Shown piece after piece: positions 46,790 to 58,295 of a stretch of 64,000 nt of DNA. The DNA comes from Pyramidobacter sp. YE332. GTDB taxonomy: Bacteria; Synergistota; Synergistia; Synergistales; Dethiosulfovibrionaceae. Every line of letters starts with the position of its first letter. Positions within the stretch are counted from its first letter, which is position 1. The position numbers were made by a program, and so were the translations under genes. The DNA is taken from positions 868,001-932,000 of the forward strand of contig NZ_CP133038.1 in the NCBI RefSeq assembly GCF_033060595.1, written 5' to 3'. The notes beneath the pieces are model-generated. The model had not been told where the DNA came from. It did not search any database and saw only the letters and a program-made list of their open reading frames with translations.

Positions 46790-47127
46790 TTTGTTTTCTC
46801 CTTTTCCCGACGGCGAGATTTTTCCCGCGTGGTCCTCGTGAGATATGGTTCTGTCCGCACCGCGAACGCGGCTTACGCCGGATCTTCATGCCAAAACGGC
46901 TCCCGCCGCTATTATGCCATAAGATCTCGAGCGAAGCCATTGCGGTTCGAGAAAGAGAACGCTTTCTCCGGACAAATCTCAGTTTATCAAAACTTCAGTT
47001 TTGTGAAAGTCATTAAATAATATAGAAGTTCATCTTGACAGCGTCCCAAGGCAATGATAATATCGCTTCAGTTTTCATCGAGTGATGAATAATAGTTTAT
47101 TCGTGCATCGTATTGAGGTGAAAAAAT
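46790..47127. other. Divergent intergenic region before argH-like gene
   Basis: The 338-base gap turns AT-rich in 46975-47110 and carries the rightward promoter at 47035. I see no gene, RNA or repeat in the rest. A clear leftward promoter for the dehydrogenase gene is not evident. Confidence 0.4.
47035..47063 (+). promoter_or_regulatory. Promoter of the argH-like/ABC/deacetylase operon
   Basis: A perfect TTGACA (47035-47040), a 17-base spacer and TAATAT (47058-47063, within ATGATAATAT) lie 65 bases before the first start codon. Confidence 0.65.
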
Positions 47128-48450
47128 ATGAATTTATGGGGAGGGCGCTTTCAAGGCGCCGAAGACGAGCTGATGAAGGCCTTCGACAATTCGCTGCCGC
47201 TGGGCAAGCGTTACTGGAAGGAAGACATCGAAGGCAGCCTCGCGCACGCGGCTATGCTCGGCGCCTGCGGGATCATCACGAAGGAAGACGCCGAGGCGAT
47301 CCGGAAGGGGCTGCAGGGGATCATGGGCGACATCGAAAGCGGCGCGCTCGTGATCGGCGACGAGGGGTACGAGGACATTCACAGCTTTGTGGAGCTGAAT
47401 TTGACGAAGCGCATCGGCGAGGCGGGCAAAAAGCTCCACACGGCGCGCAGCCGCAACGACCAGGTGGCCGTGGATTCGAAGCTCTTCGCCAAAAACGCCG
47501 CCGCGCGGGTGGAGGAGAAGCTGGACAAACTGTGCGGCGCGCTCAAAGCTACGGCCGACGCCAATCCCTGGCTGATGCCGGGCTACACGCACCTGCAGCG
47601 CGCGCAGGCCGTCACCTTCAAACACACGCTGGCGGCCTTCGAGCGCATGTTCCAGCGCGACCGCAAGCGCCTGCGCAACGCCGTGGAGATCATGATGGAA
47701 GACTGTCCGCTGGGCTGCGGCGCGCTGGCGGGGACCACGCATCCCATCGACCGCGGCATGACCGCCGCGGCGCTGGGGTTCCAAAAGCCCTGCGACAATT
47801 TCCTCGACGGCGTCAGCGACCGCGATTATTTCTGCGAGCTGCTCGGCGTCTTCGCGATCGTCCTCATGCACCTCAGCCGCCTGAGCGAATCGATCATCCT
47901 CTGGTGTTCGCAGGAGTTCCGCTTCGTCACGCTCAGCGACGCCTATTCCACGGGCAGCAGCATCATGCCCCAGAAGAAGAACCCCGACAGCGCCGAACTG
48001 ATCCGCGGCAGCGCGGGGCTGGTCTACGGCTCGCTGATGGCGATGCTGACGGAGATGAAGGGGCTGCCGCTGGCCTACAACAAGGACATGCAGCTCGACA
48101 AGCGGGCCTTTCTGCCGGCGCTGGACGACACGCTGATGTGCCTCGAGATCATGAGCGGCCTCGTCGCCACGATGACCGTCCACCCCGAGGCCATGAAAAA
48201 AGCGCTTCACGACGGTTTTCTCAACGCCACCGAGCTGGCCGACTACCTCGTCAAACGCGGCGTGCCCTTCCGCGACGCGCATGCCGTCGTCGGCGCGGCG
48301 GTGCTGCTGTGCGAGAAAAAAGGCTGCGCGATCGAGGACCTGCCGCTGGAGGAGCTGCAAAAACTCAGCCCCGCGATCGGCGCGGACGTGTACGGCCAGC
48401 TGGATTACGAAAACACGATCAAACTGGGCGTCAAGAGTCAAATGCTATGA
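47128..48450 (+). CDS. argH: Argininosuccinate lyase or related fumarate-releasing lyase
   Basis: The 440-residue member of the fumarase/aspartase superfamily begins MNLWGGRFQGAEDELM. Motifs are LHTARSRNDQVAVD, MPGYTHLQRAQAVTF (catalytic His) and the mobile signature loop GSSIMPQKKNPDSAELIRG. Argininosuccinate lyase cleaves argininosuccinate to arginine and fumarate. Close relatives such as EDDS lyase cleave other N-substituted aspartates. No argG or other arginine gene is nearby. Instead it leads an operon with a racemase-like protein, an amino-acid ABC importer and two deacetylase-fold enzymes, so a catabolic substrate is plausible. It is slightly shorter than the common 455-465 residues. 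Confidence 0.85.
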   Translation: MNLWGGRFQGAEDELMKAFDNSLPLGKRYWKEDIEGSLAHAAMLGACGIITKEDAEAIRKGLQGIMGDIESGALVIGDEGYEDIHSFVELNLTKRIGEAGKKLHTARSRNDQVAVDSKLFAKNAAARVEEKLDKLCGALKATADANPWLMPGYTHLQRAQAVTFKHTLAAFERMFQRDRKRLRNAVEIMMEDCPLGCGALAGTTHPIDRGMTAAALGFQKPCDNFLDGVSDRDYFCELLGVFAIVLMHLSRLSESIILWCSQEFRFVTLSDAYSTGSSIMPQKKNPDSAELIRGSAGLVYGSLMAMLTEMKGLPLAYNKDMQLDKRAFLPALDDTLMCLEIMSGLVATMTVHPEAMKKALHDGFLNATELADYLVKRGVPFRDAHAVVGAAVLLCEKKGCAIEDLPLEELQKLSPAIGADVYGQLDYENTIKLGVKSQML

Positions 48451-49181
48451 AGATCTGCGTCGTCAATCCCGACAGCGGCCTCGACGCGGCGGGTCTGAAA
48501 CTGAGGGTCGAGCTGCTGCGCGCCTTTGCGCGCCCCGATACGGAAATCGTCATGGTCTGCCCGCGCAAGAACAATCTCTGCGTCGATTCGTGCCTCGACG
48601 CGGCGCTGGACGCGCCGGAGATCGCGGAGATGGCGCTGCGGGCGCAAGCCGGCGGCGCCGACGCGGTGTGCCTGTACTGTTTCAGCGATCCCGGCTTCGA
48701 CGCCTGCCGGGAACTGCTCCGCGTCCCCGTCGTCGGCGGCGCGCAGGCCGCGGTGCTGCTGGCCAGCCAGCTGGCCCTCAGCTTTTCGGTGCTGACCACG
48801 TCGGCGCGGCGGATCCCGCAGAAAAAAGCCTTTCTCCGCGCGCTGGGCGCCGATCCCGTCAGGATCGCGAGCGTGCGCGGCGTCGAACTGCCGCCGGGCG
48901 CCTCGCGGGAACGGAGCGAAATCATTGAAATTCTCGAGGCGGGCGGACGGCTGTGCGTCGAAGAAGACGGCGCCGGCGCCGTGATCCTCGGCTGTCTCAG
49001 CTTCGCCGGCATGGGCGCGGAGCTGACGGAGCGGCTCGGCGTGCCGGTGATCGACCCCGCCGCCGCGCTGATCGCCACGGCCGAATCTTTGGTCGTTCAG
49101 GGACTCAGCCACAGCAAGCGGAGCTGGCCCGAGCCGCCGGCGGCGCGACGCTTCTGGGGCGCGGGGACCATCGAAAACTGA
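48447..49181 (+). CDS. Asp/Glu/hydantoin racemase-family protein
   Basis: The protein is 244 residues from ATG 48447, overlapping the argH-like stop (ATGA). It begins MKICVVNPDSG, as hydantoin-racemase-type proteins do. The two catalytic cysteines of the superfamily are suggested by VCLYCFSDPGFDACREL (about residue 89) and AVILGCLSFAGMG (about residue 183). The family racemises aspartate, glutamate or hydantoins through a two-cysteine mechanism, and some members are maleate isomerases. Its place next to a lyase that would release fumarate and an amine is consistent with handling D/L amino acids. Confidence 0.85.
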   Translation: MKICVVNPDSGLDAAGLKLRVELLRAFARPDTEIVMVCPRKNNLCVDSCLDAALDAPEIAEMALRAQAGGADAVCLYCFSDPGFDACRELLRVPVVGGAQAAVLLASQLALSFSVLTTSARRIPQKKAFLRALGADPVRIASVRGVELPPGASRERSEIIEILEAGGRLCVEEDGAGAVILGCLSFAGMGAELTERLGVPVIDPAAALIATAESLVVQGLSHSKRSWPEPPAARRFWGAGTIEN

Positions 49182-49230
49182 ACGTGGCGCTGCGCCATGC
49201 GACATTTATATTTATGAGGAGGAACACACG

Positions 49231-50739
49231 ATGAATTTCAACGTCAAAAAAATTGCCGCCGGCGTTGCGGCGGTCATGCTGTGCGCCGTATCGGCCTGTG
49301 CGGCCAAGCCGCTCGAAGGGCAAAAGCTGAAGATGGCCGTCAGCCCCACGTTCCCGCCTTTCGAGTTCGAGCAGCTCGACGAGCAGGGCAATGCCCGCAT
49401 CGTCGGCTACGACATCGACATGGTGGACGCGATCGCCGCGGAGCTCGGCTTCACCTACGAGCTGGTGCACACCAACTTCAAGGGATTGATGGGGGAGCTG
49501 GCCAGTCACCGCGTCGACTTCGTCGTCTCCGGCATGTCGCCCACCGAGGAGCGCAAAAAGACCGTCGATTTCTCCGTGCCCTACTATTATTGCCAGACTT
49601 CAATCATCCAGCACAAGGGAACCAACATCAAGACCGTGGCGGACCTGAAGGGCAAAAAGATCGCCGCCTCCTTCGGCACTCAGTACGCCGACTTCGCCGA
49701 AGCGGCGGGCGCCGTCGTCGCCGCGATGGACAGCAGCACATACAGCATGCAGGAACTCCTGGCCGGCCGCGCCGACGGCGTGGTACAGGACGCCGCCTCC
49801 GCTTCCATCCGCGTCAAGCAGCATCCCGAGCTCGAGTACTTCGTGCTGCCGCAGGACGAACTCGACAAGGTGCAGGGCGGCAACGTCTCCGACTGTTTCG
49901 CCGCCGTGTTCCCCAAGGGCTCGGAACTGGAACCGCTGTTCACCGAACAGATCGAAAAGATGCAGGCCGACGGCACCATGAAGGCCATTTACGAGAAGTG
50001 GATCGGCCCCTGGCCCTACGACGCCAAGCCGCTCCGGGGCAAGCACTACAAGCTGGCGATCAACGCCACCTTCGCGCCGTTCGAGTTCGCCCAGGTGAAC
50101 GACACGGGCGAGAGCGTCATCACCGGTTTCGACATCGACGTGCTCGACGCGATCGCCGCGGCGCTCGGCTTCACCTACGAGATCAAGGACATGAACTTCT
50201 CCGGCCTGATCGGCGAGCTGCACAGCGGCCGCGCCGACTTCGTCATCTCCGGCCTGTCGGACACGGAGGAGCGCCGCAAGAGCGTCGATTTCTCCGTTCC
50301 CTATTATTTCTGCAAGACCGCCATCATCTCGCCGGCCGCCGCGCCGGTGAAGACCATGGCGGAGATGAAGGGCAAAAAGATCGCCACCGTGTTCGGCACC
50401 GAGTACGCCAAGGTGGTCGAGGCCTCCGGTTCCGTTCCCACGCTGCTCGACAACAGCACCATGGTCACTCAGGAGCTGCTGAACGGCCGCGTCGACGGCG
50501 CCGTCATGGACGCCTCGCAGGCCAAGACCAAGTGCGAGCAGAACGAGGGTTACGTGTACCACGTCATCCCCAACGAAGAGCTCGAAAGCGCCCATTACGT
50601 TTCCGGCGCGTATTCCATCGCCTTCCAGAAAGGTTCCGGGCTGATCCCCCTGTTCAACGAACAGATCGGGAAGATGTTCGCCAGCGGCCGGATGAACGAG
50701 CTGATCGTCAAATGGATGGGCGAGGAGTTCGTCAAGTAA
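49231..50739 (+). CDS. Amino-acid ABC binding protein with two tandem family 3 domains
   Basis: The 502-residue protein is about twice the usual 250-270. After a signal (MNFNVKKIAAGVAAVMLCAV, with a possible lipobox VSAC) two homologous binding domains follow. Domain 1 (about 25-265) has FPPFEFEQLDEQG, GYDIDMVDAIAAELGFTYEL and MSPTEERKKTVDFSVPYYY. Domain 2 (about 270-500) repeats these as FAPFEFAQVNDTG, GFDIDVLDAIAAALGFTYEI and LSDTEERRKSVDFSVPYYF. The duplication is internal and in frame, with no stop between. It presumably delivers polar amino acids or derivatives to the permease at 50864. Confidence 0.93.
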   Translation: MNFNVKKIAAGVAAVMLCAVSACAAKPLEGQKLKMAVSPTFPPFEFEQLDEQGNARIVGYDIDMVDAIAAELGFTYELVHTNFKGLMGELASHRVDFVVSGMSPTEERKKTVDFSVPYYYCQTSIIQHKGTNIKTVADLKGKKIAASFGTQYADFAEAAGAVVAAMDSSTYSMQELLAGRADGVVQDAASASIRVKQHPELEYFVLPQDELDKVQGGNVSDCFAAVFPKGSELEPLFTEQIEKMQADGTMKAIYEKWIGPWPYDAKPLRGKHYKLAINATFAPFEFAQVNDTGESVITGFDIDVLDAIAAALGFTYEIKDMNFSGLIGELHSGRADFVISGLSDTEERRKSVDFSVPYYFCKTAIISPAAAPVKTMAEMKGKKIATVFGTEYAKVVEASGSVPTLLDNSTMVTQELLNGRVDGAVMDASQAKTKCEQNEGYVYHVIPNEELESAHYVSGAYSIAFQKGSGLIPLFNEQIGKMFASGRMNELIVKWMGEEFVK

Positions 50740-50863
50740 CTTTTTTCGAAAAAAGAGCGGCCGAAGGGCTCGCCGCCGCGCGCGGAGATCCCTTCGGCCC
50801 TGTGCGACGGGCGCGCCGCGCGTCGCCGCGGCGGCTTTGCGAAACGCCGCAGGAAGGAAGAAC

Positions 50864-51637
50864 ATGAGAAAATCGCTTTTCGGCCGCAAAAAAGCGCCGC
50901 CGCTGCTGGCCCTCGCGGCCGTGCTGGCTCTGGCGGGGCTGGCCTGGGCCGCGCCGGCCCCGGCGCGGCGGTTTGCGCTGCATTTCGAACGCATCTGGCC
51001 CTATTACAAAGTCTTTTACCGCGGCATGATCAATTCGCTCGAGGTGACCTTCATGTCCGTGATCATGGGCTCGGTCTGCGGCACCGTGCTGGCGCTGCTC
51101 AAAGTCTCGCGCCTCGGGCCGCTGTCGTGGTTCGCCACGGCCTACACCTCGGTGTTCCGCGGCACGCCGCTGATGGTGCAGTTGTTCCTCGTTTATTTCG
51201 CCACGCCGCAGCTCTTCGATTATCAGATCCCGGCCTTCAACGCCGTGGTGCTGACCTTCGGGCTCAACTCCGCCGCCTACGTGTCCGAGATCCTGCGCGG
51301 CGGCATCCAGTCCATCGACGTCGGCCAGCGCGAGGCCGCCATGGCCCTGGGCGTGCCCTACCGCGCCATGATGTTCGACATCGTCATCCCTCAGGCGCTG
51401 CGCACCGTGCTGCCGTCGCTGGTCAACGAGCTCATCGCCCTGCTCAAGGACACCTCCATCGTCGCCACCATCGGCATGCTCGACATGATGCGCGCCGCCC
51501 AGACCGCCATGAACTCCACCTATCTGGCCTTCGAGCCGTTCATCGTCGTCGCCGGCATGTACTACGTGCTCGTGATGATCTTCACGGCCGTCGCCTCGCG
51601 CCTGGAGAGGAGGCTGCACAAAAGTGATCGAAATTAA
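50864..51637 (+). CDS. Polar amino-acid ABC permease (HisM/GlnP type)
   Basis: The protein is 257 residues from ATG 50864 (AGGAAGGAAG upstream); the frame is open to TTG 50837. An N-terminal hydrophobic, signal-like segment precedes the HisM-type domain. Motifs are [37 protein letters not shown] and the EAA loop [20 protein letters not shown]. It is the only permease gene, so it probably works as a homodimer. Its end overlaps the ATPase gene by 14 bases. Confidence 0.93.
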
Positions 51638-52346
51638 GGATCTGAAAAAACAATTCGGCTCCCTCGAGGTGCTTCGGGGCGTCAACCTGAAGATCGACGA
51701 CGGCGAAGTGGTGTCCGTCATCGGCCCCTCCGGCTCGGGCAAGTCGACGCTGCTGCGCTGCATCAACCTGCTCGAAACGCCCACGTCGGGACAGGTCGTG
51801 ATCGACGGGGTGGACATCACCCAAAGAGGCGTGGACATCCAGAAAGTGCGCGAGAACGTGGGCATGGTGTTTCAGCACTTCAACCTGTTCCAGAACAAGA
51901 ACGTGCTCCAGAACATGATCTACGCGCCCATGAAAGTGCGCGGCCTTCCCGAGGCGCAGGCCGTCGAAAAGGCCATGCGGCTGCTCGAGCGCGTCGGTCT
52001 GGCCGACAAGGCCCGCGCCTATCCTTCCATGCTCTCCGGCGGCCAGCAGCAGCGCGTCGCCATCGCCCGCGCCCTGGCCATGGAGCCGAAGACGCTGCTT
52101 TTCGACGAGCCCACCTCGGCGCTCGATCCGGAGATGGTCAAGGAAGTGCTCGACGTGATCCGCAGCCTGGTTTCCACGGGCATCACCATGGCGATCGTCA
52201 CCCACGAGATGGGCTTCGCCCGCGAGGCTTCCGACCGCGTCTGCTTCGTCGACGAGGGCGTGATCGCCGAAGACGCCGCGCCGTCTGAGTTCTTCTCGTC
52301 GCCGAAGTCGGCGCGCGCCCGGCAGTTTTTGGAAAAAGTGCTTTAG
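51624..52346 (+). CDS. Polar amino-acid ABC ATPase (GlnQ type)
   Basis: The 240-residue ATPase starts at GTG 51624 after GGAGAGGAGG inside the permease gene. Walker A is [10 protein letters not shown]-loop [19 protein letters not shown], signature [15 protein letters not shown], Walker [15 protein letters not shown] and the H-loop His in [10 protein letters not shown]. These are the hallmarks of the GlnQ/HisP family. It energises the importer formed with the preceding permease and double-domain binding protein. Confidence 0.95.
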
Positions 52347-52370
52347 ACGCAGAGAAACGGAGACTGAAAA

Positions 52371-53240
52371 ATGGAAGACCGGCTGCATTGGAAAAACGGC
52401 GCCCGCTGCGCCGTGATGCTGACGTTCGATCTCGACGGGGACACCACGTGGAAGAACGGCAACGCCCACTACGAAGGCGGCGACAAGTTCCTGAAAGCCC
52501 GCTCGGTAGGGCTTTACGGCCCCAACCGCGGCGCTCACGCCATCCTCGACCTGCTGAAGAAATACGGCGTCCCCGGCACCTTCTTCGTGCCCGGCAAGGT
52601 CGCCGAGGACAACCCCGGGCTGATCCGCCGCATCGACGCCGAAGGGCACGAGATCGGCCAGCACGGCTACACGCACGAAATGTTCTTCAACTACGGCCGC
52701 GAGCGGCAGATCGAGATCGTCGAAAAGTGCCAGAACATCTTCTGCGACCTGATCGGCAAGCCCGCCCGCGGCTTTCGCACCCCGTCCGGCGACTGGTCGC
52801 TGGACACGCCGCGCCTGCTGTACGAGCGCGGCGTCGACTACAGCAGCTCGATGCGCGGCAACGACCGCCCCTATCACACCGCGATCGACGGCGAAAAGAC
52901 CGACTTCATCGAGATCCCTACGCGCTGGGAACTGGACGATTACGTGGCCACCGCCTACAATTATTTCCCCGCCGAACCCGACGGGCAGGACCGCATCTCC
53001 GGCTACGACCTGGTCTACGACAATTTCTCGCGCGAGTTCGACGGCTATTACGAATACGGCCTGTGCTTCGTCAGCATGATCCATCCGCAGGTCACCGGCA
53101 CTCCCGGCCGCCTGCGCATCCTCGAAAAGCTGATCCGGCATATCAAGGAGCGAGGCGACGTCTGGTTCGCGCGCGGCGGCGAAGTGGCGCGGTGGTACCG
53201 CGAGCATTACGACCGCGAGGAGGTCCTGAAAAATGCCTGA
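52371..53240 (+). CDS. Polysaccharide-deacetylase-fold hydrolase, intact metal site
   Basis: The 289-residue NodB-like/PuuE-type protein has the metal-site Asp in AVMLTFDLDGDTTW (about residues 15-28). The His pair is in GHEIGQHGYTHEMFF, giving H-x3-H, and the arm motif is RGFRTPSGDWS. There is no signal peptide, so it is cytoplasmic rather than a cell-wall enzyme. Cytoplasmic members of this group hydrolyse C-N bonds of ureides, formamides or N-acyl compounds. In an operon with an amino-acid importer, an N-acylated or cyclic amino-acid derivative is the likely substrate. It overlaps the paralogue by 8 bases. Confidence 0.87.
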   Translation: MEDRLHWKNGARCAVMLTFDLDGDTTWKNGNAHYEGGDKFLKARSVGLYGPNRGAHAILDLLKKYGVPGTFFVPGKVAEDNPGLIRRIDAEGHEIGQHGYTHEMFFNYGRERQIEIVEKCQNIFCDLIGKPARGFRTPSGDWSLDTPRLLYERGVDYSSSMRGNDRPYHTAIDGEKTDFIEIPTRWELDDYVATAYNYFPAEPDGQDRISGYDLVYDNFSREFDGYYEYGLCFVSMIHPQVTGTPGRLRILEKLIRHIKERGDVWFARGGEVARWYREHYDREEVLKNA

Positions 53241-54069
53241 AATCGAGTGGAAGGACGGCGCCCGCTGCGCCGCCATGATCACCGTCAACCTCGACGCCGA
53301 AAACTTCTGGCTGGCCGTCGACCCCGACGTCTCGAAACGCCCGAAGACTCTGTCCATGGGGCAGTACGGCATGGACCGCGGCCTGCCGCGCCTGCTGGAG
53401 CTTCTTGACGATTTGGATATCAAGGCCACGTTTTTCGTGCCCGGTTCGACCGCCGCGGCCTACGCCGAAAAAGTGAAAGACGTCGCCGCCCGCGGCCACG
53501 AGATCGCCCTGCGCGGCTACGAACTGCTCAACTGGGGCCTGCTGCCCGCCGAACAGGCCGCGGCCGACATGGAAAAAGGCGCCGCTGTCCTCAAAAACGT
53601 CGTCGGCGCGCAACCCAGAGGCTACCGCGCTCCCATCGCCGAGTTCACCCTCGACACCCTGCGCGCCGCCCATGCCAACGGCGCCGTGTATTCCAGCAGC
53701 CTCAGCAGCGACGACCGCCCCTTCTGGTTCGACCTGGGAAACGGCGAAAAACTGCTGGAGATCCCCGTTCACTGGGCGCTTTACGACCTGCCGTACTTCG
53801 CCTTCAACTACCACCCGCCCATGCCGAAGGGACAGGGGCGGATCGCCAACTCCGCTCAGGTCTTCAATAACTTCCGCGAGGAGTTCCTCGGCTGCGCCGA
53901 GCGCGGCCTCTGTTACGTGCTCCAGCTCGACCCGCAGACCGCCTGCACTCCCGGCCGCATGCCGCTGCTGCGCGGACTGCTGACCGAGATCAAGGAGAGC
54001 GGCGCGGCCTGGCTCGCCACCGGCGGCGAGATGTACGATTACTGGTCCGCCGTTTATCCCGCGAAGTAG
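53233..54069 (+). CDS. Polysaccharide-deacetylase-fold paralogue without metal-binding histidines
   Basis: This 278-residue protein is clearly related to its upstream neighbour (WKDGARCAAMITVNLDAE against WKNGARCAVMLTFDLDGD). The H-x3-H pair is replaced: GHEIALRGYELLNW has Arg and Leu where the neighbour has GQHGYTHE. The first Asp of the metal motif is Asn (VNLDAE). RGYRAPIAEFTLDT retains the arm motif. It is probably a non-catalytic or differently active partner, perhaps forming a mixed oligomer with the preceding enzyme. It is the last gene of the operon. Confidence 0.85.
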   Translation: MPEIEWKDGARCAAMITVNLDAENFWLAVDPDVSKRPKTLSMGQYGMDRGLPRLLELLDDLDIKATFFVPGSTAAAYAEKVKDVAARGHEIALRGYELLNWGLLPAEQAAADMEKGAAVLKNVVGAQPRGYRAPIAEFTLDTLRAAHANGAVYSSSLSSDDRPFWFDLGNGEKLLEIPVHWALYDLPYFAFNYHPPMPKGQGRIANSAQVFNNFREEFLGCAERGLCYVLQLDPQTACTPGRMPLLRGLLTEIKESGAAWLATGGEMYDYWSAVYPAK

Positions 54070-54222: not shown

Positions 54223-54310
54223 GGAGGGGTGTCCGAGTGGTCGATGGTGCTTGCTTGGAAGGCATGTGTACCTTAGGGTACCGGAGGTTCGAATCCTCTC
54301 CCCTCCGCCA
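54223..54310 (+). tRNA. tRNA-Ser (anticodon GGA)
   Basis: This 88-base class II tRNA has acceptor arms GGAGGGG (54223-54229) and CCCCTCC, discriminator G and an encoded CCA end. The anticodon loop TTGGAAG places GGA at positions 34-36, reading UCC and UCU. The long variable arm GTACC-TTAG-GGTAC is typical of tRNA-Ser, and the T loop is TTCGAAT. The anticodon stem has one T-T mismatch (CTTGC with GCATG). It stands alone, with a terminator at 54355. Confidence 0.95.
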
Positions 54311-55739: not shown

Positions 55740-56012
55740 CTTGAGATCATGGAATCTTTGGCGCGGCTGCCAAAAATACAGCGAGGACTGGGAAAACCGT
55801 TATATGCATTATCCGGATAAGGTCAGAGGCGTCCCGGAGCGTGCGGCTGTCATTCAAGGGATAATCCGCCCAAGAGGAACCGGCGGGGGCAGTATAAGAT
55901 CCCATCCGGCTCTTGCCTGCGTGTCAATATGACTTCTGGTGCATTTCTTGAAGAGGCGGACGAGTGGCGCGTCGAAATGTGGAACGTGATGGGAACGGGA
56001 AAGCGTTTATGA
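55732..56012 (+). pseudogene. DUF5131 (phage Gp37/Gp68-like) gene remnant
   Basis: The first frame (from ATG 55732) reads SWNLWRGCQKYSEDWENRYM, resembling the WNPWRGCxKxSxGCxxCY opening of DUF5131 proteins but with two cysteines lost. After a frame change near the G5 run at 55885-55889 the similarity resumes as YKIPSGSCLRVNMTSGAFLEEADEWR, then ends at TGA 56010-56012. Only about the first third of a typical protein of roughly 250 residues remains. Combined point mutations, frameshift and truncation mark it as decayed. The UvrA-like gene starts 20 bases later. Confidence 0.55.
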
Positions 56013-56032
56013 GCGACGAAGGAGATCGTGCG

Positions 56033-58295
56033 ATGAACGACAATATTGAAATCCGCGGCGCGTCCGAGAACAACTTGAAGCACATCGACGTGACCATACC
56101 GAAGGGGAAGCTGGTCGTCTTTGCCGGCGTCTCCGGCTCGGGCAAGAGTTCGCTGGCTTTTGATACGGTGGCTGTGGAATCCGAACGCGAATGGCAGCAG
56201 AGCTATCCGCTGTTTCTGCGCAACAAGATGCCGCACTATGACCGCCCAAAGGTGGACGAGATCCGCAATCTGACGCCCGCCATCGTAGTGGATCAGCGCG
56301 CCATCGGCGCGAACACCCGTTCCACGGTCGGCACGGCGGTGGACGTCGCGCCGCTTTTGCGTCTGCTGTTTTCCCGCGTGGGCGAGCCGAGTGCCGGCGG
56401 CAGTATGGCGTACTCCTTCAATCATCCCGCCGGGATGTGCCCGGACTGCACCGGCGTCGGAGAACGGTTGGAGCTGATCGAGGAATCCATGTTCGACCCG
56501 GATAAGACTCTTGCGGAAGGAGCCATTCTGTTCAGCCAGTTTTCCGCCGGATGGCAGACGCACCTGTATCAGAACAATCCTCTGCTCGATCCCGATAAAA
56601 AGCTCCGGGATTTTACATCCGAGGAATGGGACACGCTGAAATACGGATCGAAAGAACCGGTCAAAGTGGGAATCAAGTCCAACAATACCGGACGTGTGGA
56701 TATGGTGGAATATGAGGGCGTTTTCCCCCGTTTTGAGCGTGTCTACATGAAGCGGGACATCACCAAGCTGAAAAAAGGCTTGCAGGACGAGATCATGTCT
56801 CATGTGAGGCGCGGGGCATGTCGCACCTGCGGGGGACGGGACTGAATCCGAAGGCTCTGGCCTCAAGGATCAACGGCAAAACATCGTGGAGTGCATGGAC
56901 ATGACCGCCGCCGATCTGCTGCCGTTCCTCGAAACGATCGGCGACCCGCGCGGCGGCTCGCTTGCCAAGCAGATCGCCGAATATCTGGAACGTATGATCG
57001 GCGTCGGTATCGGCTATTTGTCCCTTTCGCGCAAGACCGAAACTCTCTCCGGCGGCGAGGCCCAGCGGTTAAAAATGGTTCGCAATCTCGGCGGATATCT
57101 CAACAATATCACTTACATTTTCGACGAACCCACGGCCGGCCTGCATCCGGCGGATGCGGAGCGGATCGGCAGGATGCTCTGCGACCTGCGGGACAAGCAC
57201 AACAACGTGCTTGTGGTGGAACACAGCCGTCAAATGCTTGCGCTTGCGGACCACATCATCGAAATGGGGCCGGGGGCCGGAATCGGAGGCGGCAGTCTCG
57301 TCTTTTCGGGCAGCCTTGAAGAACTGCAAAAAGCGGGGACGCTCACGGCGCAGGCGATCCGTCAGAAGGTCGCAGTCAACAGAGAGCCGCTGCCGTGGAC
57401 GGAAGGCTACGAGATCAGAGACGCCCATTGCCACAATTTGAAGCACGTGAACGTGACCGTTCCGAAGGGCGTTCTCACCGCCGTCACCGGCGTGGCGGGA
57501 AGCGGCAAAAGCTCGCTGATGCGCCGTGAGTTCCCTAAAGCATACCCGGATGCCGTCATCATCGACCAAAAGCCCATCGGCACATCCATCCGCTCGACGC
57601 CCGCCACTTATACCGGCGTGATGGACGAGATCAGAAAGGTCTTCGCCAAGGAGAACGGCGTCGGCGCGGGCTGGTTCTCCTTCAATTCCGAGGGCGGCTG
57701 CCCTATCTGCAAGGGCACCGGGCAGATCACCTACGATATGGCCTTCGCCGAGCCGTTGGCCGTCCCCTGCGAGGAATGCGGCGGACATCGCTACAATCCC
57801 ACGGCGCTGTCTTACTGTTACAAAGGAATGAACATCGAAGAAGCGATGAGGCTGACTATCGGGCAGGCGTATGATTTCTTCGACAATGCCAAGATCCGCA
57901 AGCTCCTGCGGAGCATGATCGACGTGGGGCTGGATTATCTCACGCTGGGACAGCTCACGAGCACGCTGTCCGGCGGAGAAGTGCAGCGGGTCAAGCTGGC
58001 CAGCGAGCTGCACAGGCAGGGACAGATCTATGTGCTGGACGAACCAAGCACCGGCTTACACGCTAGCGACATTGAAAAGCTGCTGGCGCTGCTCCGCGGG
58101 CTGGTGGGGAGCGGGAACACCGTGGTCATGGTCGAGCATCGCATGGAACTGATCGCACAGGCGGACTGGGTCATCGACATGGGGCCGGACGGCGGCTCCG
58201 GCGGGGGAACAGTGGTATTCGAGGGGGTCCCCGAACAGCTGTTGAAATGTTCGGGCTCCAAAACCGCAAAGTATATGCTTGAAGCGCTCCGATAG
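56033..58295 (+). pseudogene. UvrA-like ABC ATPase with two frameshifts
   Basis: It would encode about 755 residues, the length of UvrA-like (UvrA2/DrrC type) drug-resistance or repair ATPases rather than the 940 of canonical UvrA. ATG 56033 follows AAGGAG. Part 1 has Walker A GVSGSGKSSLAFDT and the CPDC zinc pair. After CRTCGG the frame slips at the G5 run 56831-56835, then again at AAAA 56878-56881. Part 2 (from 56886) has ETLSGGEAQRLKMV, YIFDEPTAGLHPAD, a second Walker A GVAGSGKSSLMRRE, CPICKGTGQI and LSGGEVQRVKLASEL. Two one-base insertions would restore the gene. Confidence 0.85.

Follow-up and report, generated by a model that had tools for sequence, protein, structure and literature searches.

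The stretch of DNA considered here (the window: 64,000 nucleotides of Pyramidobacter sp. YE332, positions 868,001 to 932,000 of contig NZ_CP133038.1) derives from a 2.8 Mb genome assembled in 2 contigs, and contains at positions 47128-54069 seven co-directional plus-strand open reading frames (ORFs). These code for an ArgH-family lyase, a racemase-family protein, the three components of an amino-acid ABC importer, and two proteins of the CE4/NodB fold, herein termed Dac1 and Dac2. The features of the locus, in window coordinates, are:

47035..47063, + strand: promoter-like site TTGACA-17-TAATAT before argH, consensus match 10/12
47128..48450, + strand: ArgH-family lyase, 440 aa (TIGR00838, argininosuccinate lyase motifs, tree)
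48447..49181, + strand: Asp/Glu/hydantoin-racemase family protein, 244 aa (PF01177, Cys78 and Cys183)
49231..50739, + strand: solute-binding protein (SBP) with two SBP_bac_3 domains (Pfam, domain alignment)
50740..50863, + strand: GC-rich stem-loop region between the SBP and permease genes (fold prediction, -67.3 kcal/mol over 124 nt)
50864..51637, + strand: polar amino-acid ABC permease (PF00528 and TIGR01726, both above cut-off)
51624..52346, + strand: polar amino-acid ABC ATPase with a GTG start (PF00005)
52371..53240, + strand: Dac1, CE4/NodB-fold hydrolase (PF01522)
53233..54069, + strand: Dac2, its CE4/NodB-fold paralogue (PF01522)

Successive genes meet in a 4-base overlap, a 49-base gap, a 124-base gap, a 14-base overlap, a 24-base gap and an 8-base overlap. 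The scanned region contains 5 promoter-like sites against 0.9 expected, and by eye the one before argH is almost fully conserved in L035, L048 and L049 and has diverged in L101. The seven genes behind this site are predicted to be transcribed as a single operon. A first-pass annotation, made by a model from the letters alone, had described seven packed genes behind one promoter; the co-directional ORFs and the promoter-like site agree with this, while the 124-base gap exceeds the short gaps that it mentioned. Its family assignments were all recovered (TIGR00838, Asp_Glu_race, two copies of SBP_bac_3, BPD_transp_1, ABC_tran, and two copies of Polysacc_deac_1). The conserved co-occurrence that it had proposed to look for was likewise found, with the whole operon present at 99-100% protein identity in Pyramidobacter sp. 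C12-8 (L035) and at 93-98% in L048 (genome G001) and L049 (genome G003), and with a six-gene module and proteobacterial variants elsewhere; gene presence and counts at the compared loci are based on tblastn.

The lyase scores 513 bits against the argH equivalog model TIGR00838 (cut-off 279.5). Aligned to argininosuccinate lyase (ASL) and delta-crystallin chains, it retains the motifs GYTHLQ, GSSIMPQKKNP and YNKDMQxDK, inclusive of the catalytic His/Ser loop and the Tyr, Lys, Gln, Asp and Lys of YNKDxQxDK, which we take to be the arginine-end residues of ASL. It differs from known ASLs in its placement within an import/hydrolysis operon and in a Leu at the Glu of DMQEDK, and its short C-terminus (440 aa) is common to the clostridial, argG-linked type. 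In comparisons with PDB sequences it scores 391 bits against 1tj7, which we take to be the E. coli ASL, versus 165 bits against 6g3d, presumably an ethylenediaminedisuccinate (EDDS) lyase, although the entry itself is labelled argininosuccinate lyase. Within the plasmid collection its closest relatives (53-56% identity) belong to Subdoligranulum, Paraclostridium and Acetoanaerobium, each with argG within ~5 kb. In a tree of 51 rows, holding one ordinary proteobacterial ArgH and no proven EDDS lyase, the Pyramidobacter operon versions group with these argG-linked clostridial proteins at 100/100, outside a divergent lyase group containing L102, L103, L108 and L111 (branch 100/99). In G000 and G003 no ArgH other than that of the operon exceeds the cut-off; G001 has a second (388 bits), placed in the divergent group. 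The ArgH proteins of G002 and G004 group with those of other Synergistota, G004 possessing the operon type too. Taken together, these features suggest that the window ArgH is most likely a true ASL of the clostridial type. The EDDS-type lyase favored by the first-pass annotation is not supported and was rejected on the score difference and the tree position; the protein is moreover the sole ArgH above cut-off in a genome that contains argG.

That single ArgG lies at C1:671398, ~243 kb from the operon; the earlier statement that no arginine biosynthesis gene is near thus holds for the stretch read around the operon and not for the genome. The Pyramidobacter ArgG is 73% identical to its Subdoligranulum counterpart and only 43-47% identical to those of 23 ArgG loci of other Synergistota, which suggests that argG and argH were both probably acquired from Clostridia. 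Within the host genome ArgJ found no match and ArgC reached 28.8 bits, far below its cut-off of 233.6; de novo synthesis, which would call for ArgJ and ArgC alongside ArgH, is thus not supported (the search did not extend to ArgA, ArgB, ArgD or ArgE). An arginine deiminase route in the same genome was likewise rejected, PF02274 giving no match. An ornithine carbamoyltransferase (OTC) is encoded within ~9 kb of a carbamate-kinase-like AA_kinase protein and ArgZ-like proteins. This region (L109 1-10661, from host C1:122000-141000) additionally codes for a protein 34% identical to the AgcS symporter of L050, and two of its proteins have the C-terminal Rossmann domain of ArgZ with no match to the dihydrolase. 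From these gene contents it looks as if the host uses citrulline and meets its need for arginine through ArgG and ArgH rather than by full synthesis. The first-pass annotation had held that a complete arginine pathway with this as its only argH, or an operon not conserved in relatives, would tell against a catabolic role: argG and OTC do occur, while the ArgJ and ArgC results and the conservation of the operon point the other way.

The second gene product scores 114 bits against PF01177 (cut-off 31) and matches a putative hydantoin racemase (3qvj) and an allantoin racemase (5lfd) in the PDB. Its Cys78 and Cys183 align with two positions that carry Cys in 3qvj and Ser in 3qvk; in 5lfd the first of these is occupied by Gly. 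Both cysteines are present in all six module racemases aligned. The PF01177 match together with the two putative catalytic cysteines indicates that it belongs to the Asp/Glu/hydantoin racemases. The binding protein has a signal-like N-terminus (by eye), and its two SBP_bac_3 domains are 52% identical to each other. The two-domain form is found in G000, G001 and G003; a single-domain form occurs in L036, L052, L143, L144 and G004 (L101), that of G004 being 80% identical to domain 1 of the window protein. GlnQ is the best NCBIfam model for the ATPase, which scores below the cut-off of that model. The combination of a family 3 SBP, a HEQRo-type permease and a GlnQ-type ATPase points to a polar amino-acid ABC importer, its ligand being predicted from family membership. 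The 124-nt sequence between the SBP and permease genes resembles that in L048 and L049, folding having been computed for the window only; the very stable predicted stem-loop in it may raise the dose of the binding protein.

Dac1 and Dac2 both pass the PF01522 (Polysacc_deac_1) cut-off and are 38% identical; no signal peptide is seen by eye in Dac1. Residues D20, H98, H102 and H238 of Dac1, presumably an Asp-His-His metal site and a catalytic His, are intact, and the same four places are occupied by N, R, L and D in Dac2. Among 21 Dac pairs (the window, L048, L049, seven other loci and eleven plasmids, near copies included and L035 omitted) all four residues are kept in every Dac1 and in not a single Dac2. 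The losses in Dac2 differ by lineage, with Arg136 and Asp190 remaining constant. This pattern suggests an enzyme/pseudoenzyme pair. The Dac1 proteins of the two module types share a single clade (98/96). The Dac2 proteins make up two clades (each 100/99) without a supported branch uniting them (66/24 for the all-Dac2 split); overall, the pair likely had a single origin. By fold, the nearest solved structures to both are 3rxz, HP0310, and the PuuE allantoinase and its kin (models with mean pLDDT of 81.8 for Dac1 and 84.8 for Dac2, built from 8 and 9 sequences only). Sequence and fold together give 3rxz, 3qbu and PuuE (3cl6) as the PDB relatives of Dac1, and 3rxz is the nearest entry to Dac2. 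HP0310 is described in the accessible part of its report as a PuuE-like protein without a signal peptide, with an obstructed active site suiting a small molecule, and with homologues adjoining polyamine-importer and D-Ala-D-Ala-peptidase genes (PMC3084791). A 2024 survey, to judge from its accessible portion, makes the case that not all NodB-fold proteins are CE4 deacetylases (PMC10967932); because PuuE is described there as metal-independent, Dac2 might still catalyse a reaction by a different mechanism.

When 72,556 plasmid records were searched with Dac1 and Dac2 of Burkholderia, at E limits of 1e-60 and 1e-35 respectively, both queries recovered the same 11 records, weaker pairs escaping these limits. 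All 11 stretches also code for a polar amino-acid permease, an ATPase, a binding protein and an MmgE/PrpD protein, the last standing where other modules have the racemase, and argH is present in 10 of them. In the eleventh, from Paracoccus seriniphilus, genes for arginase and ornithine cyclodeaminase are divergently adjacent, with an Lrp-family regulator in between. With 165 ArgH places spread over 7.3 billion bases, the probability that one lies within 12 kb of a given locus by chance is ~2.7e-4; this estimate is approximate and takes no account of kinship among the 11 records, 7 of which are from Burkholderia, Caballeronia or Paraburkholderia. Among the matches listed (60 of 95 for MmgE and 60 of 94 for the Burkholderia ArgH), 41 records are common to both, and the two genes are no more than 7 kb apart in 39 of these by the listed places, and in the other two, from Caballeronia, by way of a second ArgH place. 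In the ArgH tree, which includes 7 of the 10 plasmid versions linked to a Dac pair (L124, L141 and L142 were omitted as near copies), the cluster ArgH of Ensifer, Rhizobium and Ochrobactrum joins an ordinary rhizobial ArgH, L150 (99/88), and that of Burkholderia, Caballeronia, Paraburkholderia, Sinorhizobium and Chelatococcus forms a third clade (100/100). As the tree is drawn, the ArgH slot appears to have been filled from three lineages; no other observation argues as well for ArgH catalysing a step of the pathway, and the lyase is on this account more likely a member than a chance neighbor.

Our tentative preference, held with slightly less than even confidence, is that the operon is a salvage or catabolic module for an argininosuccinate-type amino acid, the likeliest being the cyclic lactam ("anhydride") or the epimers of argininosuccinate, or else a closely related guanidino compound. 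Should the window ArgH make arginine, the module would be expected to deliver argininosuccinate. This compound is stated, in the accessible part of one source, to lose water and form a five-membered ring (PMC6918381), which would offer an acidic carbon to the racemase and an amide to a PuuE-like hydrolase. Uptake would be through the two-domain SBP and the ABC importer, which, judging by their families, would recognize the free alpha-amino-acid end; the two-cysteine racemase, or MmgE/PrpD in Proteobacteria, would then invert the acidic succinyl carbon. Dac1, as its fold and residues suggest, would open the lactam with the aid of the pseudoenzyme-like Dac2, and ArgH, given its strong orthology, would cleave argininosuccinate to arginine and fumarate, the arginine passing into protein synthesis or arginine catabolism. 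In favor of this proposal are the status of the window ArgH as the sole one above cut-off in a genome with argG, its kin being near argG; the related module of Proteobacteria, with another epimerase family and other ArgH lineages; and the arginine-catabolism genes beside two argH-less modules, that of Paracoccus and that of genome G025 with its near copy in G033. In G025 the next genes on the same strand encode what by eye is a GntR-like regulator and a protein of the arginine deiminase family, an arrangement identical in G033. A bolder formulation, possible though doubtful, is that of an undescribed cross-phylum pathway yielding arginine and fumarate from argininosuccinate in cyclic or epimerised form, or from a natural guanidino analogue, with interchangeable racemase/epimerase families, repeated recruitment of ArgH, and lactam opening by an obligate heteromer of a CE4 enzyme with its pseudoenzyme. 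We know of no argininosuccinate-type compound used as a bacterial nutrient. The searches made of open-licence papers yielded no description of a pathway joining argininosuccinate lyase, MmgE, hydantoin racemase and polysaccharide deacetylase, in agreement with the earlier remark that none was described; the parts are known, and the pathway itself was not met with there. The first-pass annotation had also sketched a route of import, opening, epimerisation and splitting, an outline backed by the co-occurrence of the families in distant phyla and by argH in 10 of the 11 plasmid records; it was right in this outline and probably wrong on the kind of lyase.

Several observations weigh against our proposal. 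The substrate and all enzymatic and transport activities in it are read from sequence. Divergent lyases also pass the argH cut-off (388, 414 and 423 bits in G001, G007 and G019), so that passing it is by itself no proof of ASL activity. The ArgH tree is flagged for the joining of long branches, its deeper forks are weak (83/64 and 90/86), and with the 34 ungrouped rows set aside the ArgH proteins of the proteobacterial clusters fall on one side of a branch. The Burkholderia/S. meliloti clade lies on a long branch and has changed motifs (RAGRSRNDQ, DLAEDK), and its substrate may be a relative of argininosuccinate. The PuuE model TIGR03212 gives 75.6 bits for Dac1 and 63.9 bits for Dac2 (cut-off 424.6), and HP0310 is reported, in the accessible part of the study, to be inactive on the compounds tested, allantoin included (PMC3084791).

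The modules that lack argH bear most directly on the principal rival, according to which ArgH is the ordinary cellular ASL, partner of the distant argG and merely co-transcribed, and the other six genes are an independent module for a cyclic amide or hydantoin-like amino acid. The module is rare, as Dac1 occurs at E <1e-40 in only 6 of 101 genomes of the host and its relatives (G000, G001, G003, G025, G033 and G100) and in 3 of 391 genomes sampled from the class to which Blautia belongs. Seven loci other than those of Pyramidobacter and the plasmids contain the Dac pair (L036, L037, L050, L051, L052, L143 and L144); among these, L050, L051 and L052 are from the taxonomic order of the window organism and L050 and L051 are near copies. 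ArgH is absent from all seven in the stretches read (6.4 to 20.8 kb), as is MmgE; the racemase is present at six, L144 (G362) having neither racemase nor MmgE in the stretch read. The importer is an amino-acid ABC system at L036, L052, L143 and L144, and an AgcS symporter replaces it at L037, L050 and L051 (by family in L050 and L037, by 100% identity to L050 in L051); as both are amino-acid transporters, a substrate whose alpha-amino-acid end is free would fit. L052 and L143 (genomes G100 and G364) have the exact window order racemase-SBP-permease-ATPase-Dac1-Dac2, and L036 has the six genes in a slightly different order, so that in Pyramidobacter argH stands before a module that is already complete. 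Conversely, in G004 ArgH lies next to the single-domain SBP with no racemase in between and no Dac1 match in a genome 83% complete, an arrangement indicating that the ArgH-importer linkage can exist without the rest of the module. A Subdoligranulum plasmid (L148 2823-9314) encodes argG, an ATPase, a permease and an SBP on one strand with argH divergent, the importer genes separating argG from argH; this locus has no Dac or racemase match, looks like a citrulline-to-arginine unit, and fits plain conversion of citrulline to arginine. The presence of argG in the host, with the window ArgH as the only one above cut-off, would also follow from a housekeeping role. However, this explanation leaves unaccounted for the occurrence of argH beside the Dac pair in Proteobacteria, drawn there from other ArgH lineages, and the arginine-catabolism genes adjoining two argH-less modules. 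We therefore retain it as the main alternative, while considering it less likely. ArgH above cut-off is encoded elsewhere in 4 of 5 argH-less-module genomes searched, the fifth, G362, giving a partial match, and one each is present in G025 and G033 in addition; this is consistent with the salvage proposal, the test being a weak one in that ArgH is common.

Degradation of iminodisuccinate (IDS) proceeds through an epimerase and a C-N lyase, and a second alternative is an aminopolycarboxylate route of the IDS/EDDS kind, in which an epimerase and a fumarate-releasing C-N lyase would act on some N-succinyl amine different from argininosuccinate, and the CE4 pair would open a lactam of the ketopiperazine type. 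The likeness extends to the use of an aspartase/fumarase-superfamily lyase and, in the proteobacterial clusters, of the MmgE/PrpD family of the IDS-epimerase, whose structure 2hp0 is the closest solved one to their MmgE/PrpD proteins (E 4e-35) with cis-aconitate decarboxylase a close second (4e-31); the long branch and changed motifs of the Burkholderia/S. meliloti ArgH would fit as well. The window, unlike that system, has a cysteine racemase, an amino-acid importer, a CE4 pair, and an ASL-like lyase that keeps the ASL motifs and falls outside the divergent group, and a separate IDS/EDDS-like locus (lyase, MmgE/PrpD, ABC ATPases) exists in Pyramidobacter G002, which together make this route quite improbable. 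Less probable still is an N-acyl or N-carbamoyl amino-acid route with an incidental ArgH, in which the CE4 proteins would deacylate and the racemase convert D to L: CE4 enzymes usually deacetylate and the pairing of a racemase with an amidase is known, but the recurrence of argH is left unexplained and the nearest structures are 3rxz, HP0310-like and PuuE-like, with a small cyclic substrate known for PuuE and a small molecule suggested for HP0310 in the accessible text. Breakdown of allantoin was considered in view of the Dac fold and the racemase family, both shared with ureide breakdown (3cl6, 5lfd), and was rejected, the two CE4 proteins being far below the PuuE cut-off and a lyase that releases fumarate not fitting such a route (the search covered no further ureide genes); the retained metal-site residues of Dac1, the tandem pair, and the Gly of 5lfd at the first racemase cysteine are further differences.

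Beyond the Dac-pair clusters, a wider proteobacterial set is typified by S. meliloti, where LysR-argH-permease-ATPase-SBP-MmgE/PrpD is accompanied by one divergent CE4 gene whose product lies outside the Dac-pair clade. The S. medicae counterpart (L138) has an interrupted CE4 reading frame, and in Chelatococcus the CE4 gene lies on the upstream side, separated by the LysR gene from the rest, and has an Asp/Glu-racemase-family gene nearby. The S. meliloti cluster, on pSymB-sized records, resembles the window operon in combining argH, an ABC importer and CE4, and differs in its single divergent CE4 and in MmgE/PrpD replacing the racemase. We infer that this cluster (L140/L146) corresponds to pSymB argH2 and the ABC genes SMb21094-97 from a broad match of gene order, the tags being absent from the L140/L146 records and SMb21096 being labelled a permease in the accessible part of PMC2912261 and read by us as an ATPase. 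In that part, argH2 (SMb21094) and the ABC genes SMb21095-97 are down 10- to 21-fold by microarray in a tolC mutant of strain 1021, and argH2 4.5-fold by RT-PCR, with the other named urea-cycle genes except arcA2 being up; the authors place lower NtrC behind the drop of nitrogen-compound transporters and give the function of the SMb21095-97 transporter as unknown (PMC2912261). Should the salvage proposal be correct, some genes annotated as arginine biosynthesis, probably including S. meliloti argH2, would serve a scavenging route, some cytoplasmic "polysaccharide deacetylases" would be lactam hydrolases, and the recurrent coupling of one intact and one degenerate CE4 protein would be a case of an enzyme/pseudoenzyme partnership.

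Divergent ArgH-like lyases occur in other Pyramidobacter as well, at L102 5629-7942 (G002) and L103 9402-10574 (G001). The G002 gene directly follows an MmgE/PrpD gene, near an acetamidase/formamidase-family gene and two ABC ATPases that by eye resemble the oligopeptide type; this locus resembles one of the IDS/EDDS type. Downstream of the operon the window contains a tRNA-Ser (54223-54310), and at 55964-58295 a UvrA-like ABC protein is divided into two ORFs (293 and 469 aa), its counterpart in L035 being a single ORF of 777 aa; the split is either a true break or a sequence error.

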